Source: Ceratodon purpureus (lineage: Eukaryota > Streptophyta > Bryopsida > Pseudoditrichales > Ditrichaceae). Taken from it: 64,000 nt of DNA. The DNA is taken from contig CM026433.1 in NCBI GenBank assembly GCA_014871385.1, positions 12,131,326 through 12,195,325 on the forward strand. Reading direction: 5' to 3'. Positions 12,551 to 59,649 of this stretch are shown here, one piece after another. Under the pieces are notes generated by a model. That model worked only from the letters and a program-made list of their open reading frames with translations, was not told the DNA's origin and did not search any database. Every line of letters begins with the position of its first letter. Positions within the stretch are counted from its first letter, which is position 1. The position numbers and the translations under genes are program-made.

Positions 12551-14140
12551 GTATGTTACTTCTGAGATTTGGCACATTGTTTTTGTTTAAGTTGTGAGAG
12601 TGTTGGGTTTAAGGGCTCGGTGTCATGTCTTAGCATCACTCTAGATAATTGGCCGAGTACGTTCAATTTGCTTCGTAACGTTGCAACAACGTCAAACTGT
12701 GATTTTGGCCTCTGTGCAGCTGAATGATCTCACCTCGGAAATTAAGTGTATAGAATTCAGATGAATTCAAAAGGGAACGGGTCTCTGAATTGTGCGCTGT
12801 GTGTGATCGTTTGTGTGTGATCAAGTGAACTTACGCACAGTTTGTCAGAGTACAAGTTTGTTCTTATTCGCATTTTGCAGTAGTTGGTCGCAGCAATTTG
12901 AGATGCTCGCATCTGCATCTTTTTTTGTGCTGAGGGTTGTTGTGAACACCCTTTACCTTGAGATTGTTTGATTTTGTAGCTGGTATACTTCGGCCTTTTC
13001 CATGGTAGTAAAATTTCTTGTTTCGATACCAATTTGGGCGTTATGTCATGTCACGACGATTCAGCTTCTGGGATTTGTAACATAATCCGCAAGTTTTATC
13101 ATATTTCGAGCCTGGTAGGAGACTCAGTCACTCAGTGGAAGAGATTAATAGCTCAGAAGTATTACTAGACCGGGGGTGAGACCCTGTAGCCTAGACAGAT
13201 CGTCAAATTCACAGGAAAGCTTGAACCCACACATCTGAATCGGATCAGATTGTCTGTATTTTACGAAGTTGCCTGTGTCACAATTCGTGCCTTCAGATCC
13301 AAGTTGTTTTGAGGAACATCATTCTGCACACAAGTGTAGAAATACTTATGCTTCATTCGAAAGTCATAAAGTTTCAGATTCCTAGATTTTGTAGCTACCC
13401 TTGATGTTATTTTGGGTTGTTTAAATCTTAAGACAAATTAGTAGCATTTCTGAACACCCTTTTGTGATTGATCTTGGGTCCTTCTCATTGTCTGGCATTC
13501 GTAATTTCGTACGTATTCTTTGAGTCCTGTTTCAGCACCTGTGAATTCAGGATTTATTTATTTAAAGTTGTTCGTTTTGCCCGGTGTTGATGCAGCTATT
13601 TGAGAGGACACATGCTATATGGATAATCCAAGCTGTGTGCATCTTTGGGTCCTGTCAAGTACACAAACTATGTCTTTACTGTAATGGTGGTACTTCAATT
13701 AATAATGGTGATACATCCAAAGCATCTGTGTGTGATCGTGTGTATGATACATATTTCAGATGTGTGTATGTGACACAAAGCATGTGTGTGATACATATTT
13801 CATGCCCGTGTATATCTGCTATGTACTACCAGTGTACAGGGGGTGCATTGGAATCGGAATTGTATGCCCTGGGATGTGCTACATACACAAAGGGGACATC
13901 GGTGGTGTACTGAAGTGCTGAGTATAGCCTGAGTGGTGATCTGAGGTACACATGTTGTACACGATCGCTGTTAAAAGGCACAGTCGAGCATCAAGAGTGT
14001 AGCTATGGGGTATTGTGAGCACATGTTTCATGCATGCATACAGGGTTCATACACGAAGTGGTCATTGATAGTGTACGAGTTCTGTATCACTATTCTGAAG
14101 AAGCTAGTATTGACTCATCGCATGGTTTGAAATTGTGCAG
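12551..14140 (+). other. Intron 1 of the cargo transposase gene
   Basis: Donor CAG/GTATGT at 12,550 and acceptor TTGTGCAG before 14,141. It is long for this gene and holds the TGTGATACA-rich tract near 13,690-13,880. A short extra exon cannot be excluded, but phase 0 on both sides works without one. Confidence 0.6.
13690..13880 (+). repeat. TGTGATACATATTT-rich tract in an intron
   Basis: Several copies of TGTGTGATAC, GTATGATACATATTTC and GTGTGATACATATTTC lie within about 190 bases. The same motif in the other orientation fills 30,300-30,610, also in an intron. It is not a simple tandem repeat because spacing varies. Confidence 0.6.
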
Positions 14141-14941
14141 ACAGATTTCTTCTTCCGCTACAAGAAAGCCCATCCGTTGGAGACTGTTAAGCAAAGGGCA
14201 TTTCTTAAATTGTGTCCTTACTTTGTTAAACCGATGAAGGATCGTGCGCTATGTTGTTGTATTTACCACGTAGAGACTATATTGATGAAGGAAGCCTTGA
14301 ATCGTATGCGTGATGTGAAACTTGGTATCCATGGAACTCACGGTGAATATTGTTTTTGTGATATTTGCTGTCCGCCAGGTTCATCAGGCCGCGACGATTG
14401 CAGAGCCAGCCTCACGCATTACACTGGCACAACTCAGTTGTGGGAGTCCTGTGTATGCGAAAAGGGAGCACTTGATCGCTGGCATAGAAGGGAGTGTTTG
14501 ATGGGTACATGCACGCGATGTGGCGTAGATCGGAAGTTATCTTTCTGTCCCTTCGAACTGGACCCAAATTCAGCAGCTGTGGTCACGTGGCGTTGTTTTG
14601 AGCGGATCGAAATTGGGAAAGACGAGGATGGCAATCCTGCGAGGCGGATCAAGGAGGTCTACAAGCAGACTTCACCTTACGAATTGGTGCAGTATCTCAA
14701 ACCCACGCTTCAAAGATTTATTACACACAATTTCGTAGCTAGATGGCAAGATGAGCAATCAAAGCTAGCATTAAAGTCGTTACATGAAGGTGTGATTTTA
14801 TCATACATCGACTTTGCCGAAAATTATACGTTCCAGCCTGGTGTGGAGGTTCAATCTGAATATTTCACGAGTTTCACTTGCACAATCCTAGTTCACATAA
14901 CTTACCGAGTTGTGGTTAATCGAAGCACAAAAGTCCAGAAG

Positions 14942-14950
14942 ATTGTGAAA
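14942..14950. repeat. Left 9-bp target duplication of the Mutator-like element
   Basis: ATTGTGAAA, exactly repeated at 25,228-25,236. Nine bases is typical for Mutator-like elements. Keeping one copy makes the codons read through (…KIVKE then SHFFIS…). Confidence 0.85.
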
Positions 14951-15022
14951 GAGGGAAGTTACCATGCGTGCTGCGAGCGGCGAGCGGAGAGCGGCGAGCA
15001 GAGAATGGCGAGCACAGAATTT
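14951..15022 (+). repeat. Left terminal inverted repeat of the MULE
   Basis: Begins GAGGGAAGTTACC, then ATGCGTGCTGCGAGCGGCG and further GAGCGG / GCGGCGAGCAGAGA copies. Pairs with 25,145-25,227. The inner 40 bases differ by a single base; the outer 13 are more diverged. Confidence 0.8.
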
Positions 15023-15713
15023 ACCTTTATCAAAATTTTCAATACTAATAATACCCCTATAACCGCGGGAAAATAGGGAAATATGGCATTTTTGTAGTTA
15101 CTTTTTTAAGAAAAAAGTGTGTAATTCCGTGGATTTCTGGGTTAAAATCACTTCAGTTTATTACGTTTCTATGAAAAGGTATAAATTAGGGCTGATGTCA
15201 TGATGACGTCATGCATATATTTTGTTATTTTTGTCATGGGTTTAGGCAAGATACAATGATCAGGCGTTGAGTTTTAGATCAAAAAAATAATTCTTTCATA
15301 GAATTATGTAATTGCACAAAGGAAAACACAAATTTCACAGAACATGAAGGAGGCAAGGTCTGAAAACTTCCTGGAATATTTCAAAGCTCGTGTACAATAA
15401 TTTAATTGGTGAAACCAAGATATACCTTGTCAGAGTCCTTGTCTTCATCGAAGATTACTCCGTCTTCCTACGCAGCGAAACTTCTTCATTCGAGTGATAC
15501 AAGTAAGAGATTCTCATCACGAAACAACAGTTGGGTTCCACAGAAGGAGGCGATTCTTTGTTTCTTGAGCTTGTTTCTAGGTGGCGTATTAGGATAGTGA
15601 CACAAGCCCCGGCATTTTGTGCTGTATGCGAAGGTAGCGTACAAGTTTGGGTAAGTAAATGTGCAAGCTTGCGTGGAACGTTTTAAGACAACAACAATTT
15701 AGTGTCTTGCGCG

Positions 15714-16001
15714 ATGCAGAAGGTGCGTAATGCGGCGTCAAGGAGGACGAGAGCCGTTGTGGGTTTGGCCACCAAGGCACCGGCGAGTTATGAGGAGCTG
15801 CGGCCCTGGCTGGTGGAGGTGGAGCGGGCCAGGGAACGAGGCATGGACCTGCCGCCGTTTAGGCACATCGGACACCTCCATGTTGGTGATGGTGAATGGC
15901 GGTGGACAGTGCTCTGTACCAATGAGCTTCTCCGTATCATAGACCAGTCCCTTATCCCGTATCCCTTGGCCTCCACCGCCGTTGAGAATCCAGTTGTTTA
16001 G
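15714..16001 (+). CDS. Possible small ORF or first exon inside the MULE
   Basis: Opens with ATG (MQKVRNAASRRTRAVVGL) and encodes about 95 residues, Arg-rich at first, then YEELRPWLVEVERARERG and an HIGHLHVGDGEWRWTVLC stretch. The composition and GC content look more coding-like than the surrounding AT-rich DNA, and it may be a captured exon or the start of the element's own gene. No family is recognised and no splice partner is assured. Confidence 0.3.
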   Translation: MQKVRNAASRRTRAVVGLATKAPASYEELRPWLVEVERARERGMDLPPFRHIGHLHVGDGEWRWTVLCTNELLRIIDQSLIPYPLASTAVENPVV

Positions 16002-16566
16002 CTGTCCGAAGTGATCATATCGGATGGCAAAAATTGCTGGTTTTGATATCGACAAGAGTTGGACTATATATCCCCCGAAGGATTATTACTGTAACAAATA
16101 GGCAACTAGTGGGGTGTTTGAATGCGGTAAAGGACTCCAGAGGATTGTAGAGGAAAGAACCTGTCTTTGTGTGTTTAGCAAGGACAGATATTCTTGCCTG
16201 ACCTCGTGTCTGGATTTCTTCGAAGAATAACACGTGAGCTTGGAATTATAAAAAAAGATTACTCTTTGTTATGTAAGTTTTTATAGTTATGGGTCTCTTC
16301 TGAGAACAAATGATGTTTGTATTATGAAAACAAAAGATTAACATTTAAAGAAATTTCTAATAGTTATGGGAGTCTCAGAATAATAGATGAGATTGGTATC
16401 ATGGAAGAGGTTATCGACCTTTAAAGATTAATTAAAGTATTCATATTTACGAACTATTACTAAGAGTGTTTTGAGTATGATTTTAAAATGAGAGGAATCA
16501 AAATAATATGAAATGGTCAACGTTTTTCGTTTAATTAATATATTAGAAAAGCCTCTAGCTCATAAA

Positions 16567-18865
16567 ATTTCAAAGTTCCGTATGCTGTAGTTTTGGACGC
16601 TTTGCTGGTTGATCTTCATCGTCAGGTTCTCTTGTCCGCTTCCGTATTGGAACCCAGTCAAATTGTTTTTCCCTAATTGATCCGGTTTGTCCACATCCAA
16701 CTCAATACAGCCAAATCCCTTCATTATCTGCTTTCCATGCGTAATCTATACACTCGATAGGCATTGAAACGTGGTTTAGCAGAGGAGGTGTCGATATTTT
16801 AATATCTCTACGATAAGCCATAGCCCCTAGGTCTTTAAAATAGCATATCCAAGTCGAACTCAGTAAATATTCATTGGTGCGTCGATTTAAGGATATTCGA
16901 AAAAAAACGTTCCGGTACATGTACTCGAATGCGTCTAGGAATTTTCACAGTTTTCCTTGTGCCATCTACAACTCCATATGTAAGCATTAATTCATCATCC
17001 AGATCATTAAAAATAGACACCCTATACTCTGCCAGATGTTCGTGGTGGTCCTCGTCCTCCTTCCAATGCCCAAATAGCTTAAACTGATGTCTACCACTAA
17101 AAGGATGGAACTGAGAAACATACAAACCATCTCGTTCAATATTCCATCGACACAAATATGTATCAGGGCTGGGACCTTGTTTACAGATAGGGCAGTGCCA
17201 AAGGGTGGGGGCCAGTGGTACCCGCATGAGCCTCGGGTTCATGCGGGCGAAGGAGTAGCAGAGACATTCTGCCCCTCTCTCGCATAAGCCAACCGCTCAT
17301 ACAGCACAGACATTCTGCCCCTTAGCTCTGCCGGCAACGGCAGTGGTTTTGAGGGGCAGTAAATTGAATCTTGAAAAGAAGTGAAATAACTTACTTGAGC
17401 CTACCAAGTGGCCTTATGGAGCCATGGAGGAAATACAACGTCGGCGAAGTTAGGCTTCGGAAACTTATACGCATCCCAAATCGCTAGAGAAGAGTTCCAC
17501 CTCTGGAGCCACTTGATCATCATCGGCGTGGGCATTGCCGAAGTTGCCAACATCCAGAGCTTCTCCTGTTGCATCTCAGGCTTATCAAATTTTTCGTAAT
17601 GTAGTTTTACCTCCTCCAGAAACGCCGCTGTGTGCTTTGGATCTGCAACCGGCAAATACTTCCTTAGCTCCCCAATAAGCTTGTCCTCCACTGCTTTAAC
17701 TGCCTAGGCAACCCACTCGTTGGCAGAGCGCTTGGTCCATTGCTCAAGGTCTGGGTGTTTGATCTGAAATCTCTCCTGAGCAGCATGTGCGGCTTCTCCT
17801 AGCTCTTGCTAAATTCACACAAAATTGTGAAAGTTATTCAACACGATAATAAAACGGTATTCAATCAAAGGCATTGCCGCGGCTAAGGAGCGCATACCTG
17901 ATAAAGCACTGTGCATAAGGCTTCAACCGAGAGTGTGTACCAAGTCCTCTTCTTCCCGGTCTGTTTCTTCTTAGTTGCTTCCAGAACCGACTGCGGTACT
18001 AGACCCTCAAAGTAAGAGATTGGCTAAGGAGCTATGTTTTGGACGCGGTACAGTTTGTGGACAAGATTAGTTGACACATGCGATTTCTGATTCCTCCTGA
18101 ACATGTAGAAAATCCGGTTAATTAGCACTCTCTAAAAAAGAAGACAAATCATATCAAAGATTAAAAATCAAAGATCCCTCACCAGGTAACTTCGTGTAAC
18201 GCGGTCAAGGCGGAGGGTACGTCCCCTCTCGGATCGAGAATTACACTTTCCATCCTGTAATGCCAATTGATATCTCCCGCATGATACTCCTCAATAATCG
18301 GCCTCCAGGCCTGCAACCTACGGTAACCATCCCAGACCATGAACATCTTGTTCGAAAATATCAGCAAGTCCTCATCTTTACGCAAGCTCTGCTCGAAGTC
18401 GTCATTAACCTCCCTCTATTCCTTGGATCAGGAGGCTTCGATAGCCGGGGTGACTTCTGAAGTATGCCCATGGTTGTCTTGAAGGGCAACATAAAAATAT
18501 CCATTACCCTCCATGTAGCCATCCCTAACAAAATGGGCAGCAAGGTTGTTCACATCATTCTTCAGGAAAGGGCAAACCACCGGCAGTGACACCATACGAC
18601 AAAGAGGTATGAAGAGTCGATCCTTTGGCTTCGGCTGCCACTTCAATTTCTTGAATCGAGATGCGGTGATCACTAATTCCCGGTTGACAAGATCATACAA
18701 CTTCTGCTTGAGTCCTCGGTCCGATAAGCGAACTGCAACACGAGGTCCATTGAGGTAATCAGAACATCGATAAGCCCAATTCATGCACAACCCAATCTCA
18801 TGCCCGCAACATGCGCACTCCGATTGCAAAACAAATATCATCAGAAAAGGTATAGGTAGGCCCAT
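16567..18865 (-). pseudogene. Decayed passenger gene with a ParB-like DG..RL segment and C-terminal nuclear signal
   Basis: Coding runs leftward with at least five pieces. First, CACCGHEIGLCMNWAYRC to VALQDNHGHTSEVT (18,850-18,430); then DEDLLIFSNKMFMVWDGYRR and MESVILDPRGDVPSALTAL (18,385-18,185); then RVLINRIFYMFRRNQK to LSVEALCTVLYQ (about 18,135-17,898); then ELGEAAHAAQERFQ to FPPWLHKATW (about 17,815-17,401); then a CPICKQG segment, HVPERFFSNILK and a KRPKLQ basic tail (17,242-16,567). The WDGYRRLQAW / DPRGD pattern recalls the ParB/sulfiredoxin fold, but that is a weak call. In-frame stops interrupt several pieces (for example near 18,025, 17,703 and 16,700), so it is decayed. Probably a host or element passenger gene carried by the MULE. 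Confidence 0.55.
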
Positions 18866-18884
18866 TGCAATATTGAAAGCACTG

Positions 18885-19779
18885 CAAATGAAGTGCCGTT
18901 AACGGCACTCTTTTTGCAGTGCATTATTCATGGAATTAAGTCACCTTCATCACCGAGCTTCTTGACAAGGCTCGGTGAAGAAGGTTTTGCTCTACCATTT
19001 AAAAGCCACAGCAAAAGCAATGCCGTTAACGACACTGCTTTTGCAATGCCTTCTAGATTGCACGGGGCCAACCAATACTGCCGAGACTTATGCCAAATTT
19101 GGCGGTATAGGTTGGATCTCTCCAATAAAGAAAGCACTGCAGAAGTAGTGCCGTTAACGGCACTGCCTTTGCGGGGCCTATAAGATGGCACAAAGTCACC
19201 TTCGTCACCGAAGCCTGGTAATGAAGGTGACTCTATGCAATCCAAAAGGCACTCCAAAAGCAGTGCCGTTAACGGCACTGCTTTTGCAGTGCCTTCTAGG
19301 TGCTACACAGCCTACCTTCATCACCAAGCTTCTTGATAAGGCACTGATGAAGGTGGGCTGTGAGCCATCTAAAAGACACTGCAAAAGCAGTGCCGTTAAC
19401 GGCACTGCTTTTGCACTGCCTTCCAGATGGCATATAGTCTTCTTTATCACCAATCCTTGTCAGGAAGGTTGGTGACGAAGATGGGCTCCATGCCATTCCG
19501 AAGGCCCTGAAGAAGTAGTGCCGTTAACGGCACTGCTTTTTCAGTGCCTTCGGAATGGCATGGAGCCCATCTTCGTCACCGACCTAGTCAAGAAGCTCGG
19601 AGATGAAGATGGGCTTCCGCCATCCGAAAGGCACTCCAAAAGCAGTGCCGTAAACGGCACTGCTTTTTCAGTGCCTTCGGAATGGTCAAAGCCCATCTTC
19701 ATCTCCGATCCTCGTCACAAAGGGAGCGAACTAAGAGGAAAATCATAGATGAGAGGAGGGTCAAAAAGGAGTGCCGTCA
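18885..19779. repeat. Palindrome array, short-period part (about 127 bp)
   Basis: Palindromes centred on GTGCCGTTAACGGCAC or close variants at about 18,900, 19,027, 19,155, 19,270, 19,397, 19,525, 19,652 and 19,779. Intervals are 127, 128, 115, 127, 128, 127 and 127. Inner arms such as AAAAGCAGTGCCGTT / its complement are perfect over 30 bases at 19,270 and 34 at 19,397. Sequences between centres contain a second, weaker inverted pair around CTTGACAAGG (for example CACCGAGC … GCTCGGTG near 18,955-18,977). Open frames across it (for example peptides with SAVNGTAF) arise on both strands because of the symmetry and are not genes. Confidence 0.9.
19471..19580. repeat. Near-perfect 110-bp palindrome without loop
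   Basis: Each arm is 55 bases; 52 of 55 positions pair, and the outer 35 are perfect (GGTGACGAAGATGGGCTCC … ). The centre is CCGTT/AACGG at 19,525/19,526. Transcribed, it would make a long hairpin. Confidence 0.9.
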
Positions 19780-21300
19780 ACGGCACTCCTTTTATGACCT
19801 CTCAAGATGTCAACAAAGAACTCGAACTCCTTACCTTCGACGGCCTTGACAGTTCATTACCAACAGCAAAAGAACCATTCTGCAGGGCGCAAAAACTGAA
19901 CAAGGAGCGGTTTTGGGAGGAAAATCATGTATGAGGGGAGGGTCAAAAGGGAGTGCCGTCAACGGCACTCCTTTTATGACCTCTCAAGATTTGTCCAAAG
20001 TGCTCGAACTTCATACCTTGGACGGCCTTGACAGTTCATTACCAACAGCAAAAAAACCATTATGCAGGGCGCAAAAACTGAACAGGGAGCGGTTTTGGGA
20101 GGAAAATCATGTATGTGGGGAGGGTCAAAAGGGAGTGCCGTCAACGGCACTCCTTTTATGACCTCTCAAGATTTGTCCAAAGTGCTCGAGGTTCATACCT
20201 TGGACGGCCTTGACAACAGAGAACCAACAGCAAAAAAACCATTCTGCAGGGCGCAAAAACTGAACAAGGAGCGGTTTTGGGAGGAAAATCATGTATGAGG
20301 GGAGGGTCAAAAGGAAGTGCCGTCAACGGCACTCCTTTTATGACCTCTCAAGATGTCTACAAAGTGCTCGAACTCCTTACCTTGGACGGCCTTGACAATA
20401 AAGAACCAAAAGCAAAAAAACCATTTCGCAAGACGCAAAAATCAGATAGGGAGCGGTGTTGGGAGGAAAATCATGTATGAGGGGAGGGTCAAAAGGGAGT
20501 GCCGTCAACGGCACTCCTTTTATGACCTCTCAAGATTTTTCCAAAGTGCTCGAGCTTCATACCTTGGACGGCCTCGAGAGTTCATTACCAACAGCAAAAA
20601 AACCATTATGCAGGGCGCAAAAACTGAACAGGGAGCGGTTTTGGGAGGAAAATCATGTATGTGGGGAGGGTCAAAAGGGAGTGCCGTCAACGGCACTCCT
20701 TTTATGACCTCTCAAGATGTCTACAAAGTGCTCGAACTCCTTACCTTGGACGGCCTTGACAACAAAGAACCAACAGCAAAAAAACCATTCTGCAGGGCGC
20801 AAAAACTGAACAGGGAGCGGTTTTGGGAGGAAAATCATGTATGAGGGGAGGGTCAAAAGGGAGTGCCGTCAACGGCACTCCTTTTATGACCTCTCAAGAT
20901 TTGTCCAAAGTGCTCGAACTTCATACCTTGGACGGCCTTGACAGTTCATTACCAACAGCAAAAAAACCATTCTGCAGGGCGCAAAAACTGAACAAGGAGC
21001 GGTTTTGGGAGGAAAATCATGTATGAGGGGAGGGTCAAAAGGGAGTGCCGTCAACGGCACTCCTTTTATGACCTCTCAAGATGTCTACGAAGTGCTCGAA
21101 CTCCTTACCTTGGACGGCCTTGACAGTTCATTACCAACAGCAAAAAAACCATTCTGTAGGGCGCAAAAACTGAACAGGGAGCGGTGTTGGGAGGAAAATC
21201 ATGTATGAGGGGAGGGTCAAAAGGGAGTGCCGTTGACGGCACTCCTTTTATGATCTCTTTAGATATCTCTAAAGTGCTCGAACTCCTTACCTTACACGAC
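19720..21300 (+). repeat. Palindrome array, long-period part (exactly 182 bp)
   Basis: Nine centres reading GTGCCGTCAACGGCAC at about 19,779, 19,961, 20,143, 20,325, 20,507, 20,689, 20,871, 21,053 and 21,235, that is eight intervals of 182 bases. Arms are 7 paired bases around a CA centre, extended to about 25 with GGTCAAAAGGGA / TCCTTTTATGACC. The last copy has TG in place of CA at the centre, i.e. the opposite orientation. Between centres lies a conserved block (CCTTGGACGGCCTTGAC, AACCATTCTGCAGGGCGC, GAGCGGTTTTGGGAGG). Copies differ by only a few bases, so the array is young or is being kept uniform. Because 182 is not a multiple of three, the frame shifts in each unit and no protein can span it. 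Confidence 0.92.
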
Positions 21301-22460
21301 CTTGACAACTAAAAACCAAGAGCACTACTTTTAAGAGCAGATCTAAGGAGAAACAGTGGTGCTTAAGGGCTTGGAACTGAATCAAATATAGGACAATTTG
21401 AGCTTCAAAAATACCCATAATGCATCTGAAAAGGATGTACCGTTAAAGGCAGTTTCGCAAAAGTGTCTCCCAGATGCACAAAATACCTACAAATTCCTTA
21501 AAATAGCCTTTATCAATCAATTATGGACTCAAAATTATTTTTTGATGTCCTTCAGAGGTAGTGCCGTTCACGGTAGTACTTTTTTACTGCAATTTGAAGG
21601 ACTTGAAGTATCTAATTGAAGGTTTTCTTGACAATTTCTTCAGTCTTGATAAAGGGCTAAAAAAGAGTGTCGTTAACGGCTGTACTTTTTGAGCCTTCTT
21701 TTGGTCATTTAATCTGTTAAAATGAAGCTGCTGTGGAGGTTGTGTTGTCAATGGCACGTCTCAAGAAGTATCCTCCGCTGTTTCAAGGGGGTCGAGTTCA
21801 AATACCAATAATGCCCCTTGGGACCACTGTTGTCAACGGTAGTAATTTCAAGGGGTCAAATTCAACATCCAAAAATGGCCCTTTGGATGACGAATGTGGT
21901 TTCAAGGGGTCGAAATCAAAATCCAAAAATGCCCTTTTGGACCACTGTCGTTGACGCCAGTGGTTTTAAGAGGTCAAATTCAACATCCAGATGTTCATGT
22001 TTTGACTACTACAATTGCCAGCGAAGGTCTTATTTACAATTTAACAATGTAAGATGAAACCTCATTTCTCTCAAACACCTCTTATAGGACCAAATAGGAA
22101 ATTTTTTACTTGAATGAGTTTCCAAATAAAAACTTTAGAGGACAAATATATTAATGAAACAACAATTTGCATTGTGCTAATCCAAAATTTAAGGGCTGTC
22201 CAAAGATATTATAAATACGAGATTCATATAAATTACACAAACAAATTTTTAAATAGATGAATTCAAATAAAGTAGAAGAATAGAAGGATTTCGATTCACA
22301 TTAAAGGAGATTCAAAATTCACATGTCTCCTTTAGTCCCCTACCGGCAACAAGATTGGTCTAAATGGGGTTGCCTGTTTTTTAGAATAGAATTGTCTTTT
22401 GTGCTCACTGTGAAGTGTCTTGAATGGAGCATTAGACAACTGCCGTTAATGGCGGTGCTA
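21301..22460. repeat. Decayed edge of the palindrome array
   Basis: Weaker centres continue at about 21,446 (ACCGTTAAAGGC), 21,568 (TGCCGTTCACGGTA), 21,675 (GTCGTTAACGGC), 21,834 (GTTGTCAACGG), 21,951 (GTCGTTGACG) and 22,445 (TGCCGTTAATGGC). Around 21,780-21,990 a unit with TTTCAAGGGGTC / CCAAAAATGCCC is repeated three times. Spacing is irregular. Confidence 0.65.
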
Positions 22461-22856
22461 TGAGCACCAACTAGAAGACATTCGATGTGCGGTACACGCT
22501 TGTGAAATTGGATGCGCCACCATTGTGGTTTGCTGCATCGCATCACCTAGATCATCGCTGGCCTTTGAAGCTTGCTCCATTGCTGCAACCGCTGGACCTG
22601 TGTAAAATTCCCTCCTAGCTTCTATAATCTCTTGTCATCAGTTATAGGATTGCTCTGGATCATTATGTTCTAGATGATTCTGTGGTGCTGAAATTTGCAA
22701 TGCATACCAAGGTGATAAATCTCTATTGCTGATTACGGTGAAAATGGAGCGGAATGTCTTCAATGCAGCGTTCACCGCAACTTTTTTGGTAACGAGGTAA
22801 CCAGGTAACCTTCTTAGACCACGCCATTTTTCATAATTCTATGGTTTATTATTAGT

Positions 22857-24361
22857 TTGAAGCACTGTAAGATATTCTCTATTGATCAGTTTCTTTTTAT
22901 CTTTATTGTAGAAAGCATGATCCAAGTAATTGGAGCAGTCTTTTCTCCGACTAATAGTGATTGTTTATCTGTTGTGCAGCTGAATAGCTTTGAAGTGGAG
23001 CTCCCAGTTCCAACTCTAGCCTCACAAGAAGGAGGTTCGAAGACTTGTCGTGTTGTGTTCATCCGAGCTCCTTCGATTTTAGATGTTGGTCCTTCCGTGG
23101 ATGTGCTGGCGGAATATCTCTTGGCACCCAGGCAGTCAGTCGATGTCCTAGATCACGTGCTTCTTTTCTTCGCCAATGGAGGGGATTCATGTCTGCGGTA
23201 TGATTTTCCTAAACTATGCTGCTCCCTTCAATTTTTTTAGATAAATCTAAATGACAAAACTTCTATCATTGAATCTAACTCCTTCCATTGTCTAAACTCC
23301 AGAAATTTACGGAAGAAGAACTCACAAAAATGCCCACCTGTAATCTCGTCAAAATAATTCATAACAAGTGGCTCCAAGCTTCAGGAAACCACGGCAATGA
23401 CCTCTACGTTGCCACGGTGGACGATTTTGTTCAGCGATTTCTACAGGTTGTTAACTACTACCAGTTCCTCAAAGATGACGTAGGCGGAACACGTCCATCG
23501 AAGAAGGAACTGAAGCTTAGGATGGCGGAACGTAGGGCCCAGAGAGCTGTTACAAAAAAGAAGTGTATTGAGAGAATTGTCAGGGGCGCAAACTGCACTG
23601 CTGTACCTACCTACACCGGGGTTTGGACTAACATACGTAGGAACACATCTGAGAGGACATAGTTCTTCTTCTGCCCCGATGACATTGAGAGGTGCGTGAA
23701 AGGCACAAGGCGCAAGTGGATAGCTAGATACTCAGTGGACCAAGAAATGCCTTGGATTCTAGAGGTCTGGCCAATGAAACAAGATACAAACCCCAAACTC
23801 ATAGAAATCCTCGCCCATGAAGCAGCAGGGTTTCAACTTCTGCAGAAGAAGCCGGTCTCCCCAGGACGCCTCTTCTCGTCTGCCCCGCCTCCTGCAAATC
23901 TCAGTTCGGTGCCTGTTCCTGCAGATGCAAACCGCTACCCAGGCAAGAGAGACGGCAAGATGGTGAAGCAAACTGCCACTCGCCCTAACCCGGCGCAGCG
24001 ACTTTCCATGGGCTCCTCCAAGTCCCTCACAGCTTGCCTCCGTTCCGTCACTATGATACCTCACCCGGGCCATGGTTGCATCATCGGGTTGGATTCGGGC
24101 ATTGCTCCTAACATCACACAGTACAAGATCACCATCAACTCCTACCCTGGCTGCACTTGCCCTGCATTCAAGAAGACGATGACTAAGTTCCGAGGTAGGA
24201 TTCAGTTTACGTACTATAAGCACATCTGTCACATCTTCTTGAAGGTCTGCAGCCGTGATCCCGAGACGGACCTTTTCATCCATGCGCCTACCTTTAGTTT
24301 CAACAAAATCAAGCTAGTCCTAGAGAGTGGAATCTTGACTTACCCCTTGGCCAAAAAATAG
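22857..24361 (+). pseudogene. C-terminal part of a MULE-type transposase with SWIM-like zinc motif
   Basis: Pieces: an exon with QLNSFEVELPVPTLASQ to VLLFFANGGDSCLR ending near 23,199 at a donor; an exon from about 23,303 with FTEEELTKMPTCNLVKIIHN, NDLYVATVDDFVQRFLQVVN and a basic KKELKLRMAERRAQRAV region; an in-frame stop at about 23,660; then the same frame continues with FFFCPDDIERCVKGTRRKW to the stop at 24,361. Near the end CTCPAFK … YYKHICHIF resembles a SWIM finger (CxC … CxH), although the Cys normally before KH is Tyr here. The N-terminal catalytic part expected for a MULE transposase is not visible upstream, where the palindrome array lies. So this is a truncated, stopped remnant of the element's own transposase. 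Confidence 0.6.
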
Positions 24362-25144
24362 GCGGCAGGATACTTTGGACGACAGGCATTCACATAGTGG
24401 ACGGTGGTTAATGGGGATGCTTAGTCATTGGTGATTGAATTTTTCCTTGTACTGAGTCAGCAATACAATTTTCGTATTACCTATTTCAATATAAAGGCTT
24501 TGTCATTCACATTTACTTCATCAAGTAAGAATAGTATTAACTTTGGACAAAGGCCCTTTGTACATTGTCTCTCCTAAAAGTTGGACTGTACTAGTGCCAT
24601 CAATACAAATTAATAGCCATTTTATTCTTCAAATGTAAAAACTGAAATGGAAAAAAAAATACATAGAAAATGAATAAAGAATAATTAAGAAGAAAATGAA
24701 CAAACTAATTAGAAGATATATTGGCAATACAAATTAGAGGATAGCATGGAGGAATAGAATGGATAGACAGAGTAGGAATTGAGAAGATGGTTAGAATGGA
24801 AGAAGATAGAAAGGGAAACAAATTCAAATAATTAAAACAATAAGTAATATGATGAATGCCATGTACATGATTGGAAGAGATGTAATAATATGAAGAAAAT
24901 GACATAAAATTTAGAAATTTAATTTAAGAACATTACAAAATATAGGATTAGTACAGAAACGAAGAGGGAAGGTAGTACATTTTTATTATAAAAACTGTAG
25001 TTCAGTCCACGGTTATAGGGTAAGAAAAAATTACTGATTCTATAAATATTCTGAGAATATTCTGAGAATATTCTCAGAATGTTCGAATATTCTAAATTTA
25101 TATTCGAATTTTAGTCAAAAAGTTACTTTTTAAAAGATTTTGGA
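24362..25144. other. Non-coding right inner part of the MULE
   Basis: AT-rich, with no gene. At 25,040-25,092 there is a run of GAATATTC-type palindromes (GAATATTC, TGA, GAATATTC, TCA, GAATGTTC, GAATATTC). A purine-rich AGAAGATAGAAAGGG-like tract lies at 24,700-24,900. Confidence 0.5.
25040..25092 (+). repeat. Cluster of GAATATTC inverted motifs
   Basis: Four GAANNTTC units in about 50 bases, with 11-base steps between the first three. GAANNTTC is the half of a plant heat-shock element, but the spacing here (three bases between units) does not fit the strict 5-base rule, so a regulatory role is only a guess. Confidence 0.45.
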
Positions 25145-25227
25145 CCCAATTTTCTGCTCGCCGCTCTCCAAATCTCTGCTCGCCGCTCACCGCTCGCCGC
25201 TCGCAGCACGCATACAAGTCTCCCTCA
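25145..25227 (-). repeat. Right terminal inverted repeat of the MULE
   Basis: Reads inward GAGGGAGACTTGT then ATGCGTGCTGCGAGCGGCG, followed by GAGCGGTGAGCGGCGAGC and another GAGCGGCGAGCAGA copy. Pairs with 14,951-15,022. Confidence 0.8.
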
Positions 25228-25236
25228 ATTGTGAAA
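25228..25236. repeat. Right 9-bp target duplication of the MULE
   Basis: ATTGTGAAA, identical to 14,942-14,950. Confidence 0.85.
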
Positions 25237-26732
25237 GAGTCGCACTTTTTTATAAGTGACGACAAGGAGCATGATACTTTGTTCGTGCAACATTGCATGC
25301 TCAAACATTGGAAGTGGCTGGATCAGCATGGGATAAACCCGAAACAACACGTTGTATTCAGTGATGGCTCAGCGGCTCAGTTCAAGAATTGCAGAGGTTT
25401 TTACTTCGTGTGTAGATACCCCGGGTTGACGAAGGGATGTCAGATGAAATGGCATTTCTTCGGGACAGGCCATGGAAAGGGTAAGTTCACTCGTACATAC
25501 TTGCGTTCTTTATTATGAGTTTGCACATATGCTGCTTGTAATTCAAGTTTAAGCTAGGACATTGCTGGGGCAATTGATTACTGTGCGCTGGCTTATAATT
25601 GAAACAAATTACTTACCCATGTTTGTGTTATCTAGGTGAATGGGACGGGGCAGGTGCAACCGTTAAGAACAAGCTCGAACAAGAGCAGCTGTGGAATCAT
25701 GGCTGCAGGAAATTGCAGAATGCGGGTGATGTCGTTGATTATTTGAGAGTTGCATTGCCTGGACGTGCAGAGTCGAGTTATCAGAAAAAAAAAGATAGGA
25801 TATTCCGCAAATTCTGGCACATCGGCGAGACTGAGACCAATCGACGTAAAAAGTGGCAGTGCACCACAATAGTCGGGTCTAGCAGTCTACATTCGTTCTC
25901 AAGCATCTCCGGAGCAGATCCGACTAAGTTGATGGTCAGAGAATTGAGCTGCTTTTGTGGACCGTGCTTAATGCGTGACTGGAATGCTTGTGAAAATTCG
26001 GCCCATGTCCCAAGATGGCGGTGTCTGAGGATCAAAACGAAGATTGCCAGAGATGTGAGAGAGCAGATGGTGCGAGAGAGAGACGGAGAGGACTCCCAGT
26101 ATGGTGGTGATGGTGTAGGTCTATCGGACCTGCTGGAACCAGGCGACAATTTCGCAGTCCCTGCTATGCCTGGCAACGACGAGAATGTGGAATTTTATCT
26201 CCTTTACTGCCAAAGGTCTAAGTTTACTTTTGATACTCCATATAGATGCGCATGGGGACATAAGTTCAAAGCGGGTGACAAGGCTGTATGAGGATCGTAC
26301 TATCAAACTTGAGGGAGACTTGACAAGTCTTACGTACTGCTAGACAAATCACAACAAGCCTTCTTACCGGAAAGATTGGTAGTGCAAGTGAAGTTTTCCA
26401 TGGCACCCGCAGACCACCGAGTGCAAGGAGACGATACTGTTTATTATTTGGACGAGGAAGATGAAGAGACTATCATGTCTGAGTGCAACCGAAGATTCAA
26501 CGCTTGATTTGAGACTGTATACTTTGTGTATTGGCTTACGGTTCTGAGCAATGCTAAACTACCCAACCATGCACTATTTCTTGCCCAAACCTTGGCCTCA
26601 TAATGACTGATAAGTGGGCTGGTTTGTGAATGTGCCAGGTATTGATGCAGCAATCTACACGAAGGGGCCACATGCGAGTTGATATCTGTCATGTTAAAAG
26701 ATACTAATTGGCTTAATTACTGGTGCATGTAG

Positions 26733-39258: not shown

Positions 39259-42200
39259 TTACCTGCGTCGCCTCTTTGCAGCCTGCTTTCTCCCTGCGTG
39301 TCTGTCCAAACTTTGTAATGCTAGGGCGTTCTCTACGTCATTGAGCACTATTGCCCCTACGAGGTTTGGCTCCATCGGTTCATTTAGGAAAGAAGTGCCT
39401 GACGAGGAACTAACCGCAGCATCATTCGTTGTTATGAAAATATCGTCATCCTCTTCCATTTTTCTCCTTCCTCTAGCCTCTTTTCGTAAAATTACCATCC
39501 ACTGGGATCCTTTTGGGTGCAAATCGTCGGTGGCGAAAAACACTTGAGCGCACTGGCTGGGAAAAATGTACGGATCAACTGCTCGGGATAAGTTGTGTTT
39601 AAAGTTTACCACTAGAAAGCCATCAGAGTCTCGGACGTATGTGTTGTTGTTATGATTGTCAACACGTTTCTTCCAAGTACATACAAAAATGATAATGGGA
39701 GTCCTCAAATCCCCATAGTTTGGTACCAAAATATCTTGAAGAATTCCCACATAGTCCTTCCCTGTCCCTGCAGACTGCTCATTTGCTTCAAAGCAAGCGA
39801 CACCACTATCGAACGTATTCCAGGATCTGGTAATGTCATCATCAACTCTCCAATGATTGCCATAGGCACTCATTTTGGCATACCTTCTGCATGAGAGGGT
39901 AGGAGGATTCGATAACAGGACTGTGTCTGCTTCATTCGGATCACTCATATCTAAATTCACGGAATGAATTCTTTTTTTAATCCATGTGTCCGCTGGCTCT
40001 AGCTGTCCTCCCGAATTATCAAACTGCAACTTCCATTCGCTGCACAAAACTTTAATTTTTAGCTCCCCTGTGCAAATATGGCCAGAGTATACAAGTACTA
40101 AGGGTACACAGCATTAACGACCTTCTGATTACGAAAAGGTATACTCTCTACTATTTCTAGTGAGTACCTCTGCGAGGCACAGACAAAGCACTATCACGAA
40201 GTAAGAAAATTCATATAGAATGTTAACTTTTTCGGCTGGGAGTGGCTGTAGCGGAGTTTTAAATTTAGAACTCGGATAATGGAAGTTCTGAATTTCTGAA
40301 CTGAACTTGACATGCTCATGTTTCGGGTAACATACCTGTAGTAAGGAGCGGTTAGCGTATTGTTGCGAAGGACAAACAGATGAAGAGCGTCCCTTTCAGG
40401 CCGAGATAGTGTAATGTCAACATAGCCTCCTTCCAGCACTTCGAATTCTTCACAGTCTTTGGGGTCAGCATCCCATACTCTTCTTCTCACTACATCGAAT
40501 CCATGCATGTACGAAGTGGCGAACCCCATTGTCTCATCCAAGAGGTAACCATGTGCAATAGATGCTTCAGGTCGAGCCCTATTCTTGACATGATTCTTTA
40601 ATGTCATCATATTGCGCTCGATTGGTTACATCCACCGCACCTGTGCTGGTCCCAGAATTATAAGCTCGTCCACCAGGTGTAGAGGTAGATGTGACATGAC
40701 ATCGAAGAATGTTAGAGGAAAAGTTATCTCCATGAGACACATCGTCTCAGCAACATCTTCTCGGAGATTATCTGCTTGTTGTGGATCCCACACTTTGCAA
40801 CAAATCCGTCTAAAGAGACGGCACACCCTCATAATTGCCATTCTTGTGTTGGGTTCCATGAGTCCCCTCAATGCCAAAGGCATCAAAGTTTGCATGAGAA
40901 TGTGGTAGTCATGCGATTTCAGTGCCCCAAACTTCTTGTTTCGGATATGACTACCAATTTCAAAGCAGTAATTAGAAGGTACTTTCAGATTCTCTAACCT
41001 TGTACAAAAAATGTCGAACTCCTTTGCAGTCAACACGTAGTTAGCGACTGGCTTCAGCATCCTAGTAGAGTTTTTAGGATCCTTCACCATCCATAAATGT
41101 TTGCGAATTCCCTCCCGCTCCATATCCCTCCGCACCTTCACACTGTCTTTATCACCAACACCGCATATAGTTTTCAGAATATTCTCAGCCAGGTTCTTCT
41201 CACAGTGCATGATGTCCAGCGTGTTACGTATTTGGAGATGCTGCCAAACAACCAAACAATATAATCAGAACGATATGTTTACAGAGGTTATTCGATTGGT
41301 GGTTCAAAGCTCTAATTCACCTCATTATGATAAGAAAGTTATGCTAGTGAACACGTCAGAAAACAATTCACGAGGCTTTATTGGACTCACTGTACGGTAA
41401 GACGAAGCTGGAAATTATTTTATTTACTACAATTTGTATTTTGATTATTAGTTTTGAAGATATTACTCAATATGGCCCCTGTAAACAGAACTGAGACTGT
41501 TACAGTGCCTTCTTTTCATAATTCAATTCTGTCAGTACCTCGTAAGAAACAACCTCAAAGAAACGATACCTTAAGAATTCACTGCATGTAACCGTGGTAC
41601 AGTGACACTCCGACCTTCTCCGCACGTAAGTATATGAACTTCAGTAAATACTTACAATTATAAGCAGGCACACTATAGTGTAAACATATCCTCAAATTCA
41701 TTGAACACATCGGACATTTTTAACTGACCTCACTTCTAAAACCTTGTACCGAAACTTCCATATACTTTTCCTTCTAAAGCAACACCAACGTCAATGCACA
41801 GCGGTATATTTACAATACAGCAGTGCGACGTGTGAATCATGACTCGACACGATATGAAGGAGGTGACCAATCTAGAAATAAAAAATTTAAACGGTTACAC
41901 ACCTCAAACCAGTTTTCGCCTCCTGAAAATCAAAACTGCCTTCTTCAAGCACCAACATATATAATTGAGTGCATACCATCCCTCCTAGAATCAAATCTGG
42001 TGCTGTTGAAACCAGTGTCAATCCATCGACTGACAACACAACTGTGTATTGTCATCGCGTATTACTTAGAAGATATGCAAAAAAAAATTATAAGAAGGTA
42101 AATCAGATCCATTTTAAAATATGGCCGACACATACATTATAGCCAGGACGATTAGGACAACCTGTAGGACATAATTAACTCATTCACATTCACATGTGAG

Positions 42201-44489
42201 TTTGGAGCATACCTCCCAGTAGGGCAACTCGAAGAAAATACTGTCCCGTTTGATTCCATGCACTTTCGATGGATCCGGGGATTTCTCTTTTCTTATCCTC
42301 CTCCTGTGTAATCTTGAGACTCTCGGATGGACACTTGATGGTCTTGTAGTAGTCCCTCGAGCATTGTCCTGACTCGTCGAAGTCGAAGGGTGATCAACAG
42401 TGCTATTTCGTTTTCGCTTGCCACCTGCCCTATGGCTACGAGAGCCACCAGATTCGACGCCACAATCTGGACGTACACCTCTTCCGGAGCCATGTCTAGA
42501 GAGGTAAGCTAAGTACTGATCCAATGCGGCTTTCCGATCCGCAGGTGTCTTCGGCACAGGGCGTGGTCTATTCTCTGAACGTCCATTAAACAATTTATCA
42601 AACCTGGTTGACCTTAAGAAATGATCAGCTGGTAACCACCGCCTAGCATCCCTGTATATGATTTTTTTGCTTTCATAAGCGTACAAGCCCCTCAATTGAT
42701 CCCCACATGGAGGAAATGCGACATATCCTTGATGGGATGCACCAGAAACAGTTCCGTAACCAGGAAAATCATGGGTCGTGTATAGTACGGCAGCCCTTAA
42801 TCGGAGTGAACAGTCACCCTCATTTTTCAGAACATCGTAGCCTTGTACACCAGTCCACAACAGCTTCAATTCATCAATCAAAGGCCTCATCCAAACATCA
42901 AAAAATTCGAATGGAACCTGAGATCTCCCCGGAATAAGTAGAGTCAAGATAGTAAAGAACTTCTTCGTGATGAGCCACGGTGGCAAGTTCAAAATAGTAA
43001 TCAGCACAGGCCACGCTGACCAGGTGGATTTATATAGTTTGAACGGACATATTCCATCACAGGACACCTGCAATCGAACATCCGAGTCTTGTGATCCAAA
43101 GCCCATGGTGTCGAATATCTCTGGATCCATGTTATCCAACTTCTTCCAAGCCAGCGAATCAGCAGGGTATCTGACTTTCGCGTCGCGACTCTCATTTTCT
43201 TTGTGCCAGCGCATGAGCTCGGATAAAACAGGAATTCGAAAAAATCTGAGCAATCGAGGAGTTGGAGGAAAAAACCTGAGGACCTTAAGTGGTCTTATCC
43301 GGTGGAGCATGTCCTTGAACATGGGTGCTTCACAGATAGGACATCTGTCCAGATCTTTTTTATCAGGTTCATCAAAAAGAACGCAACCATTCGGACACCC
43401 ATCAATGTTTGTAAAATCCAGCCCCAAACGCCTTGTTAAAGTCTTTGCTTGGTAGAGAGAAGCGGGCAAACAGTTCTCTGTAGGAAGCAGGCTCCGGAAT
43501 GTAGCAAACATGTCGTCAGCTGCCTTTTCTGTCATACCCTGATGAGTCGCCACTAAATTTACAATCATCACTGTCGCGCCGAGTTTGGTATTTGAAGAGC
43601 CCGGATATAGTTGACACATGGCATCTTCCAATGCCTTGGCGTCCTTCAACCTCTCTGCTTCTAAGCTCTCTTGATTTTGGTCATTGTGGGCATCCGCACC
43701 CTGTCCCATGTCATTACCGTCTAGGCCAGGTCGTTGAAAATTGCCCCCGAGTCCACCAACGCCAGTACCATCCTGACCCGCACCCTGACCTCCATCGGCA
43801 GCAGGTGGGTTCGTGTCATTCCCCTCCCGTGGCCTATCTTCCCCCCCACCAACCGAAGTGCCTCCGCATTCGTAGTCTCCGCATTCTCTTCGTGTAAATT
43901 CAGAACCATCACCTCCAGAAACCTGCTCATCCTCTTCCTTGTTTGTCCCTATAATGTCGTCAGACCTCTGCAATGTTGTCATAGTTATCTCATTCAATCT
44001 TTCTTCAGTGTCCGCAAACGCGTCGACGTCCTGTTGATAGAGATGCTGCATCATCTGCCTCATTTGCATACCGTTGTCACGGTCAGGTGACACCGCAGAT
44101 GTGTTTGACATTCTTCGGGAATAATCCGTCTCCCATTCGTCATCGGAGGAGTCCGGTTCGTCAGGGCCCCTTGACGTTCTACACTCCGGTGATCTTCCAA
44201 ACCGAAGCAAGTGCCGCTCAATGACGTCTATTCCGAAGGGTAGTCCCATTCCTTGGTGTTCAGTACAAGGACACTGTATCTTTCGGAATTTGTACAGTGC
44301 CGCCCTCCGTTTATCGCGTAGCCAAAGTTTATCATCCCTCGCCTTGATCCGTCGAGGATCTGAGAGTGGTAGTTTTTGGCTCATTCTGTGACAGCACATA
44401 GCAACGTTTGCGTCAGATACTTCTATAACGCTAGACTGACGAAATGTTCCGTAACACACTGAACAAAGTTTATCGGTTTCCACATCCAC
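39259..44489 (-). pseudogene. CACTA transposase (tnp2 type) with DUF4218 and DUF4216 parts; one in-frame stop
   Basis: Three exons with matching phases: 44,489-42,213, 41,240-40,336 and 40,039-39,259. Exon 1 has a transposase-associated zinc region (LCSVCYGTF, FRKIQCPCTEHQGMG, IERHLLRFGRSPEC), a Gly/Asp-rich linker, and the tnp2 domain (VATHQGMTEKAADDMF, FDEPDKKDLDRCPICEAP, RDAKVRYPADSLAWKKLD, VSCDGICPFKLYKSTWSAWP). The exon 1/2 joint gives FELPYWE-HLQIRNTLDIMHC, the expected conserved order. Exon 2 holds DUF4218 (PLHLVDELIILGPAQVRWM, then PIERNMMTLKNHVKNRARPE). At 40,628-40,626 a TAA stands exactly where family members have Tyr in RWMYPIE. Exon 3 is DUF4216-like (SGVACFEANEQSAG, YGDLRTPIIIFVCTWKKR, FPSQCAQVFFATDD) with a basic RRRR end. 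The enzyme would bind the CACTA ends and cut them in the nucleus. One stop only: a single nonsense change or a base error. Confidence 0.88.
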
Positions 44490-46202
44490 AGTACTGGGAA
44501 GCAGGGAAGATGTATTTCTTAGGCAATTAAACTATTCACTACGACGACCATCCACACGATGACAGTAGCGTCCAACGACTTCCAAGTGACAACTAGAAAC
44601 CGACTGTGCAGCAAACGAAGTCATTCTACTGTTTCAGAATCACTGTAACCATGATGTGGAGTTCTGAAAAAAAACCATTGACATGAACGAAATTGCAATG
44701 GTGGTTTATGATTCAGAACTAACCTATCATATGATACACTAATGTGAACGAATATTTCAAATATTAGCAGAAATTCCAAATGCACACATGTTATCCCAAA
44801 TAAATATAATTGATGAAAGGCTTACATTTGTTAGAAAACGATGTGTCTTCGTAAGCCAGAAATTTGGACCGTCAATAGCTTGGCAGCCCGCGAAGACTCG
44901 GTTCACCGGATATGTTAGGTTCGTGATATGCGGAAGCAGGAGAGTAATGTTGTGAACGGAGATCCAGAGCATAACAAGGCTGAGATCTATGCTTGATGTT
45001 GTGTCATTGATTGTCCTGTAAGACGAAAGGGCGAAATTAACAAACATGAAACGTCAAGGGCAAGAAACTTTGTACTAAATTTCACTTTGAGAGCAACGTA
45101 CGACTATGAGTTACTGGAATGATATCTCCGAATGAAACGACAACCGATCCTGTAGAAAACAGATCAATGAATATGGTTTATATTCACGATGGATCAGGAC
45201 TTCTTACCAAAATATTCCCATTCCAACATTTGCAGCCGGACTTTCGATTTCCTACAATTTGGAGATATTTTCCACACTCGCAAAAGAGCCACATCCGTAA
45301 TCCCGAGTAGCAAACACGTTGGCATTTCTGTTACAAAAAAATTCATTAGGGATTAAGGAAGAATCCGACCAAAAAATATGTATATGCTGCATTAAGGTAA
45401 TCACACAGTTTCTCTTAACCTGAATAAAGTCTCCTACGAACACGAGGTGCATTAATACTCCATCAATGAGTACAATATCGACAGGGTAAATGGTACGAGT
45501 GATTTGGATGGAGAGGTTTATACTGTCATACTTCAAAGTTGTTGGTAATTCATTTCTACTCTATCAGCAAACAACGTGGAAAGCAGCAACGCTACATGTA
45601 CGAGTCAGTATCTAAGAATCATCGATCGAATCGTATCAAAGTTGTGAATCCAAAACTACAGTAATTCAAAGTGCTAATTACATTTCTCTTGACACTGGTG
45701 GAAACCTTCTATGGACTTCAGTAGTGAAAGACAATGTTGACCGTAACCCAACAACGTCAAGCATGCACGTTACGGGAACAACGACTCAACCTACAAAAGC
45801 ACGGTAAAGACTGAGCAGTCGTCTAACAGGGTGCAATTCTGAGGCGATCGCAACAGAGATTCACGTCGGGCCTCGGCTGCGTAGGTTTAGAATGGACTAA
45901 GACCAAATCAGGACATCTCAATTGCTACTTATCCAGATAAGAGTAACCAAAAAAGTTTCTAATTCTACTGGCAATTAACTGAGACTTCTGCATGTGCACC
46001 AAAATCCCTCATAGATTGCGACAAAGACATCATCGCAAGCAGCGTACCTGTTGTTTCACGACGTAACAACGGTTTCGATTCCTTCGTTTCTCCTTCACAG
46101 CTCTGCACCTGTATGTGCGAGGGGGGAGATCAGTCTGCATACTACCTCCGAGTGACTACTCATTCAGAGTGCAAGAGATACGCAAGGACCAGGTAGTTCA
46201 CG
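44490..46202. promoter_or_regulatory. Shared region between divergent CACTA genes
   Basis: The transposase gene reads left from 44,489 and the TNPA-like gene reads right from 46,203, so both promoters must lie here. No coding is supported, though a short hydrophobic frame at 44,757-45,047 (minus) is open. No certain TATA boxes are called. Confidence 0.5.
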
Positions 46203-59352: not shown

Positions 59353-59649
59353 TGCAAACACACACGGGGACAGTAAGATATTGGTACAACCGGCCTTTGC
59401 AACCAGGAATTTATGTACGAAAAAGATTACTGCGAGTGACCGGGGCGAGAGCGGTGAGGCGGCGAAGTGCTTCTGATTTCGCAGAGTATGCCCGATCAGG
59501 CTCCTCCCCGCTCAGATCCAGAGTTCGTGATTGCTGTAGCTTAGAATCCTTCTGAGAGTGATAGGGTTCACCAGTGGCGCGTTCTCAGCTTAGCCAATGT
59601 TTTAGTACCAAAACCCTAATGCAGTGCTTAGCCTAATCAAACCCTAATT
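59353..59649. other. Gap between the small gene and LINE ORF1; LINE 5' leader likely
   Basis: Should contain the LINE 5' untranslated region and the promoter of the small gene. It contains two ACCCTAA-like runs (CAAAACCCTAAT and AAACCCTAATT) close to the ORF1 start. The exact 5' end of the LINE cannot be placed without its target duplication, the other side of which lies outside the window. Confidence 0.4.

Follow-up and report, generated by a model that had tools for sequence, protein, structure and literature searches.

The palindrome array and its transposon

The window, a 64,000-nucleotide stretch of the genome of the moss Ceratodon purpureus, carries an array of palindromes inside a transposon, next to the second gene of that element (here called gene B), which is encoded on the opposite strand. 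A motif scan of the window finds 16 palindrome centres between 18,900 and 21,234, each with at most one mismatch from GCCGTTAACGGC, where the coordinate of a centre is the base left of the palindrome axis. An initial annotation of the same sequence had described about sixteen palindromes at these places, in two strict registers. The strictness holds for the second register, with eight steps of exactly 182 bp, but not for the first, in which the steps are 127, 128, 115, 127, 128, 127 and 126 bp. Tandem Repeats Finder reports a 127-bp array at 19240–19717 and a 182-bp array at 19735–21307. Most centres have the CCGTT/CAACGG cores first described. Three depart from them: at 19027 one of the arms is mutated, 19652 has GTAAAC, and 21234 has GTTGAC, which is GTCAAC on the opposite strand. 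Each unit is indeed a palindrome; one unit of the window extends to ~120 bp overall, with arms that are 94% complementary. It had also been suggested that two families of unit were joined on a shared core. One core is shared, and the unit lengths of relatives, ~106 bp in L028 and L030 and ~181 bp, among others, in L031, leave this suggestion partly supported.

The element (10,276 bp) has 16 exact occurrences of GCCG-N4-CGGC (the outlying site at 17335 is counted, 19027 is not), and the remaining 53,724 bp of the window have one. In 200 first-order Markov sequences matched to the element in composition, the mean number was 0.03 and the maximum 1. The lone site beyond the element is at 7205. The genome search that the initial annotation had proposed recovers the same array at many loci, with unit numbers that vary between copies. 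The 182-bp stretch is estimated at about 6 to 26 units among nine copies picked from the genome listing, and shorter stretches are also listed (e.g. about 2 units at C6:40887466). Because many loci repeat the array with differing unit numbers, an assembly artefact is unlikely, and the palindrome array in the window is confirmed as real.

The array lies inside a transposon, as had been claimed, and the element has inverted ends and target site duplications (Table 1). In BLAST comparisons of the window with six genome stretches holding seven copies, matches begin at 14942–14951 and stop at 25226–25228, except in one copy (C7a_1), whose left end was not located. Apart from C7a_1, all copies examined (7 of 8) show a target duplication of 9–10 bp, some with 9 bp plus one extra base. 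This length is consistent with Mutator-like elements (MULEs), for which a range of 8–11 bp is given in PMC6446971, where terminal inverted repeats are described as absent in some MULEs. Long transposase frames in the related loci L024 and L026 end in a SWIM-like CxC..CxH pattern, read by eye. Pfam, however, reports neither a MULE catalytic domain nor a SWIM match in these frames at E up to 1, nor a MULE or SWIM match in the frames of the window at E up to 0.05, and for this reason the MULE name is only provisional. The N-terminal half of the transposase, found in L024, L026, L027 and L028, has no match in the window. Given the truncated transposase, two stops in exon 2 of gene B and unmatched exons 1 and 5, the window copy is evidently dead or dependent.

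An assignment to the CACTA superfamily was tried and rejected. CACTA ends (CACTACWAGAAA with at most 2 mismatches) gave 17 matches against 11.7 expected, a number equalled in 9 of 100 shuffles, and the actual ends of the element are GAGGGA with GCGAGCGG repeats. The element is itself inserted in an apparently older transposon (about 14114–14950 plus 25227–26291), whose frames carry SDGSAAQFKN...HFFGTGHGKG and have no Pfam match at E up to 0.05. As these frames (14114–14950 and 25096–26291) are apparently older and split by the insertion, they are uninformative on the array. Elsewhere in the genome, G000:C7:8462204-8482262 holds two closely similar, identically oriented copies of the element separated by ~15 kb, each matching the window at ~98% over 17500–18890. 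Long open frames of 620, 856 and 783 aa lie in the window at 59632–63998 (+) and 42183–44531 (-).

Table 1. Features of the palindrome-bearing transposon, in window coordinates
Feature	Position	Strand	Remarks
Whole transposon, provisionally a MULE	14951..25226		10,276 bp; boundaries from BLAST against other copies
Left terminal inverted repeat	14951..15004	+	54 bp; 87% complementarity with right repeat; inverted-repeat search
Right terminal inverted repeat	25173..25226	-	Inverted-repeat search
Target site duplication, left copy	14942..14950		attgtgaaa
Target site duplication, right copy	25228..25236		attgtgaaa; one extra base at 25227
Lone palindrome	17330..17341		GCCGGCAACGGC, centre 17335; at the position of the second (intron-4) cluster of L027–L030
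Gene B exon 4	17404..17808	-	89.6% identity to L028 exon 4; followed by GTAAGT
Gene B exon 3	17898..18098	-	92.5% identity to L028 exon 3
Gene B exon 2	18182..18733	-	84.8% identity to L028 exon 2; two in-frame stops
127-bp array part	18875..19717		Seven centres; core mostly GTTAAC; extended arms of the type AAAAGCAGTGCCG..CGGCACTGCTTTT
Centres of 127-bp part	18900, 19027, 19155, 19270, 19397, 19525, 19652
182-bp array part	19735..21307		Nine centres, eight exact steps; core GTCAAC (last centre GTTGAC)
Centres of 182-bp part	19778, 19960, 20142, 20324, 20506, 20688, 20870, 21052, 21234
Decayed continuation of the palindrome field	21400..22460		Weaker centres 21444, 21568, 21674, 22447; ~64-bp repeats 21780–21989
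Transposase C-terminal remnant	22818..24358	+	SWIM-like CxC...CxH at its end (by eye)

Gene B and the intronic position of the arrays

The exons of gene B were defined in better-preserved relatives. There the gene consists of a short exon 1, acidic as judged by eye, a conserved exon 2 of 184 aa, and exons 3, 4 and 5. Exon 5 extends into a basic stretch in L027 (also by eye) and stops earlier in L028. In L027, L028 and L030 one palindrome cluster falls between exons 1 and 2 (intron 1) and another between exons 4 and 5 (intron 4). L029 shows the same two clusters, its exon 1 having been identified by eye. None of the 69 exact GCCG-N4-CGGC sites in L027–L030 falls within the gene B exon matches, which total 6,138 bp. 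The layout of the window agrees, with the first centre 167 bp upstream of exon 2 and 17335 in the position of the second cluster. In 11 of 13 loci a CAG occurs no more than 20 bases ahead of the point where the conservation of exon 2 begins, and exon 4 is followed by GT in 5 of 5 loci. The array had also been considered as an intergenic promoter between divergent genes; this was dropped once exon 1 had been located on the far side of the array in L027, L028 and L030 and, by eye, also in L029.

A first look gave 1868 candidate copies of exon 2, of which 150 were scored. By hand count, 104 of these 150 are free of stops in exon 2. Among 12 aligned members, the other eleven are 61–97% identical to the first. 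Estimates of dN/dS for exon 2 are 0.02 (L028/L030) and 0.07 (L034/L039), these being the two usable pairs of nine, with synonymous sites saturated in the other seven. These ratios show strong purifying selection on exon 2. Also by hand count, 73 of the 150 best-scored copies are on C6, which at 110.5 Mb makes up about 30% of the 362.5-Mb, 151-contig assembly, as if the family were accumulating there. C6 is probably the sex chromosome. PMC8000587 gives ~360 Mb for the C. purpureus genome and more than 100 Mb for each of the U and V chromosomes. In viral contigs, 67 stretches fit the exon 2 peptide pattern but none was confirmed as a relative, and paired TTAA sites numbered 0.

A general site form with family-specific centres

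In all, 14 loci were read out of at least 150, and their kinship inflates the agreement among them. L027–L031 were picked for holding the motif. L032–L039 are eight of the 150 scored copies, picked not for the motif but for gene B homology and divergence, and their sequence comprises exon 2 plus about 1.4 kb upstream. All eight contain GCCG-N4-CGGC sites, 4 to 11 at each locus and none in exon 2, against a mean of 0.06 or less and a maximum of 1 in Markov sequences of the same loci. Genome-wide, TACTGCCG-N4-CGGCAGTA occurs 868 times and its reversed control pattern 0 times; searches for site pairs gave 386, 191, 390 and 190 in the forward direction and 0 for the control.

The centre of the site varies with the locus. 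Counted together with its reverse complement, the N4 is GTGC at 9 of 9 sites in L032 and 5 of 7 in L036; TTGC at 6 of 6 in L034, 11 of 11 in L039 and 5 of 9 in the mixed L033; GTAC at 3 of 4 in L035; and TTAA at 8 of 9 in L037 and 9 of 9 in L038. The longer arms also vary among families (e.g. GTACTGCCG or AGTGCCG). In an exon-2 tree built without L027, the motif type is common to the gene B sister groups L034/L039, L037/L038, L032/L036 and L028/L030/window family, although a motif type shared among kin would also be expected from descent alone.

Other arrangements of the site were noted. In the intron-4 cluster of L028 (3600–4150) and L030 (200–660), arms of types GGACCGCCG and GGCACTGCCG alternate in steps of 106–107 bp. 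The spacers of the intron-1 array are, by eye, also inverted repeats, which gives that array symmetry about two kinds of centre. Tandem TGCCG-N4-CGGCA arrays occur at G000:C2:7811120-7811808, with regular 75-bp steps, and at C2:5385136-5385469; these may belong to another family or represent a coding repeat.

Helical spacing and paired changes in the arms

The 14 loci provide 143 neighbour distances of at most 350 bp, which fall into 29 spacing classes. Among these are 42, 54, 64, 74.5, 86, 95, 106, 118, 127.5, 138.5, 150.5, 159, 169, 181, 202.5 and 211.5 bp. When periods from 8 to 14 bp are scanned over the 29 classes, the best phase period is 10.65 bp with R=0.63. In 2000 random sets, each allowed its own best period, the highest R was 0.54. 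Phase is also seen within single loci, with R of 0.73 in L027 and 0.76 in L029. With each tandem run counted once, 35 of 42 listed site pairs 60–90 bp apart lie within 2 bp of 64, 74.5 or 85 bp, where 45% would be expected. The 127- and 182-bp steps of the window come to roughly 12 and 17 turns; this would account for two step lengths meeting on one core.

The arms of the palindrome change on both sides. Arm offsets 3–6 from the axis are uninformative, having been used to select the sites. Of 156 sites, 137 are paired at offset 8 (91 CG, 38 GC, 6 AT and 2 TA) and 127 at offset 10, with all four pair types represented. That both arms change together while the spacing is quantised points to a protein on duplex DNA. 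The sites are very probably bound as duplex DNA by a dimer, with neighbours lined up along a single helix face. If binding holds, adjacent dimers would bind together, and the helical spacing would record this cooperativity in the sequence with unusual clarity.

The same palindromes could instead act as RNA, with hairpins from the intron or its antisense strand feeding small RNAs or blocking their action. Introns are transcribed along with their gene, the units are palindromic (the ~120-bp unit of the window being a case), and L030 has one perfect palindrome arm of 52 bases. The perfect palindromes of L027, L029, L037 and L038 are, however, mostly 20–30 bp, short for hairpin sources of small RNA. 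Neither a spacing of 10.65 bp, near the repeat of B-DNA, nor the differing spacers would be needed by RNA hairpins, and a role as RNA is accordingly judged improbable.

Similarity between spacers bears on a further possibility, that the arrays are selfish, functionless tandem repeats grown by unequal exchange and hairpin-templated repair. Unit number does vary between copies, and repair can re-symmetrise palindromes. Spacers of 63–65 bp in L027 are within shuffled similarity in 9 of 10 pairs; being unrelated, they indicate that phase is kept without sequence. Five of 10 pairs in L029, on the other hand, exceed the shuffled maximum, and some spacers there share descent, as this possibility would have it. 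The assertion of the initial annotation that the array is no simple satellite is borne out by L027 but qualified by L029, and the 182-bp part of the window taken alone would pass for one. Against functionless repeats stand the sites that L027 retains despite unrelated spacers, the preference of the spacing for helical phase, and the recurrence of one site form both among families whose gene B has diverged and within two introns of a single gene. Such an origin as the whole explanation is very improbable.

Candidate binding proteins

Binding by a protein is thus the best reading of the array among the roles listed in the initial annotation, as suggested by the helical phasing and the two-sided arm changes. 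The protein may be the element's own gene B product, a proposal that is slightly favoured. Judged by eye, exon 1 is acidic and exon 5 of L027 includes a basic stretch, which would suit gene B as the binder. In its full form, the proposal is that the array is a platform of putative dimeric binding sites for the gene B product, comparable to the VANC system of VANDAL transposons; the chances of this are judged to be even. Through binding, the element itself, or every copy sharing its code, would stay expressed and escape silencing, in the way that VANC acts on VANDAL elements. The arrays would turn over by tandem duplication, and each family would drift to a code of its own, activating itself and not its relatives. 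These last two steps, anti-silencing and turnover with code drift, are taken together more tentatively, their joint chance falling somewhat short of even.

Several observations weigh against this proposal. The gene B copy of the window is broken by its exon 2 stops and lacks matches to exons 1 and 5, and the exon models rest on homology and splice signals, not on transcripts. Pfam finds no recognised DNA-binding domain in the gene B exons scanned and no match near a curated cut-off (the scan covered L028 exons 2 and 4, L027 exons 4 and 5 and the 12 exon-2 members). The spacing classes come from related loci that are not fully independent; four of them (60, 188.5, 198 and 240 bp) are more than a quarter turn off phase and 221 bp is at the margin. 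Some spacers of L029 are related, as described above. Outside L027, L029 and L039, only 17 of 24 listed pairs are in phase (45% expected; binomial tail 0.01). The form GCCG-N4-CGGC was written down after the eight divergent loci had been viewed, and the first filter (GCCGTTAACGGC with at most 2 mismatches) had found zero sites in L032 and 2 in L036. The short core CCGTYAACGG is less distinctive, with 1871 and 1883 occurrences genome-wide against 709 and 816 for the control. Finally, the TTAA centre is found in separate gene B clades (L028/L030, L029 and L037/L038), so that the tracking between site and protein is imperfect.

This recurrence of TTAA would suit a host transcription factor, with the transposon using intron 1 as an enhancer. 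Intron 1 is a common position for enhancers, and phased palindromic sites suit any dimeric factor. A host factor would be expected to have a single consensus, yet both the centre and the arms vary by family. The initial annotation had singled out the AACGG core of plant R1R2R3-MYB (MSA) sites. Sites with TTAA or TCAA do include AACGG, but what the loci share is GCCG-N4-CGGC. The AACGG core is absent from GTGC and GTAC sites, and is lacking altogether in the sites of L032 and L035 and in 6 of 7 sites of L036 (centres GTGC, GTAC and ATAT). The MSA consensus has YCY before AACGG, whereas the bases in the window are GTT or GTC. The MYB assignment therefore fails, and a host factor in general is considered unlikely.

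A third candidate is a partition-like module, in which gene B would encode a nucleotide-gated ParB/Srx-fold clamp that loads on parS-like, family-specific, phased intronic palindromes and spreads over the element. The spreading clamp could keep the element open (anti-silencing), pair copies, or serve in segregation. ParB loads at palindromic parS. The motif VWDGNHRLQAW, present in exon 2 in 11 of 12 aligned rows, resembles the signatures DGQHR, DGQQR and F(G/S)GCHR given for ParB/Srx-fold families in PMC4619093, and Escherichia coli YbdM, annotated as ParB-like, has VDGFHR. The row of the window family, in contrast, reads DGYRR. In Pfam, one of the 12 members matches DndB (E=0.11), while the unrelated DUF5531 is matched more strongly (0.013, 4 members). 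In hhalign, YbdM aligned to a region other than the motif with a probability of 0.5%; two unrelated controls scored 0.2 and 0.3%. Neither ParB nor Srx came up when PDB sequences were searched with a profile, NCBIfam and PHROGs gave nothing ParB/Srx-like, and single-sequence fold prediction of gene B reached a pLDDT of only 35. Clustered palindromic sites near a gene for a protein with a DGxHR-like motif are common to the moss element and to ParB-parS, the moss palindromes being putative binding sites. The moss case differs in being a eukaryotic transposon with many intronic sites, and its ParB likeness rests on the motif. A 2025 survey of the ParB fold describes links with mobile elements in prokaryotes and sulfiredoxin as the commonest eukaryotic form (PMC12704722). 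A ParB-like clamp is quite unlikely here.

Comparison with known transposon systems

The proposal of a self-encoded binder finds its closest counterpart in VANDAL elements. VANC21 is reported to bind family-specific tandem-repeat motifs in the introns of VANC21 and VANB21 and upstream of VANA21 (PMC5735166), and the target codes of VANC proteins are described as differing between related VANDAL families (PMC5735166; PMC10398659). Like VANDAL21 and VANDAL6, the moss element is a Mutator-type DNA transposon (provisionally so named) with a transposase and a second gene. Family-specific motif arrays that occupy noncoding DNA, among it introns of the second gene, are a further common trait, and turnover by tandem repetition is a proposed one. 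The moss sites differ in being palindromes of at least 12 bp, of the dimer type, with helical spacing, whereas VANC motifs measure 8–9 bp (e.g. YAGTATTAY). The moss element also has 54-bp inverted ends, while those of VANDAL elements are degenerate. No match to DUF1985, the VANC domain, was found by Pfam in gene B exons 2, 4 and 5. By the exons scanned, the moss system is thus not a VANC member in sequence but one that may work like VANC.

Plant DNA transposons such as CACTA and MuDR carry subterminal repeats to which the transposase binds. These are likewise short sites repeated inside a transposon, but the moss sites are internal and intronic and unlike the GAGGGA... inverted ends.

In the literature searched, no description of such a phased intronic palindrome system was recognised, and among papers containing the string CCGTTAACGG none, judged by title, concerns transposons. 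That related transposons carry their own versions of the site suggests a self-recognition code like that of the Arabidopsis anti-silencing transposons. With palindromes that differ between families and 104 of 150 scored exon 2 copies free of stops, such a recognition code would be readable by comparison. If gene B binds the sites, mosses would join Arabidopsis in having transposon self-recognition codes, and the occurrence of such codes in proteins without detectable similarity would suggest more than one origin.

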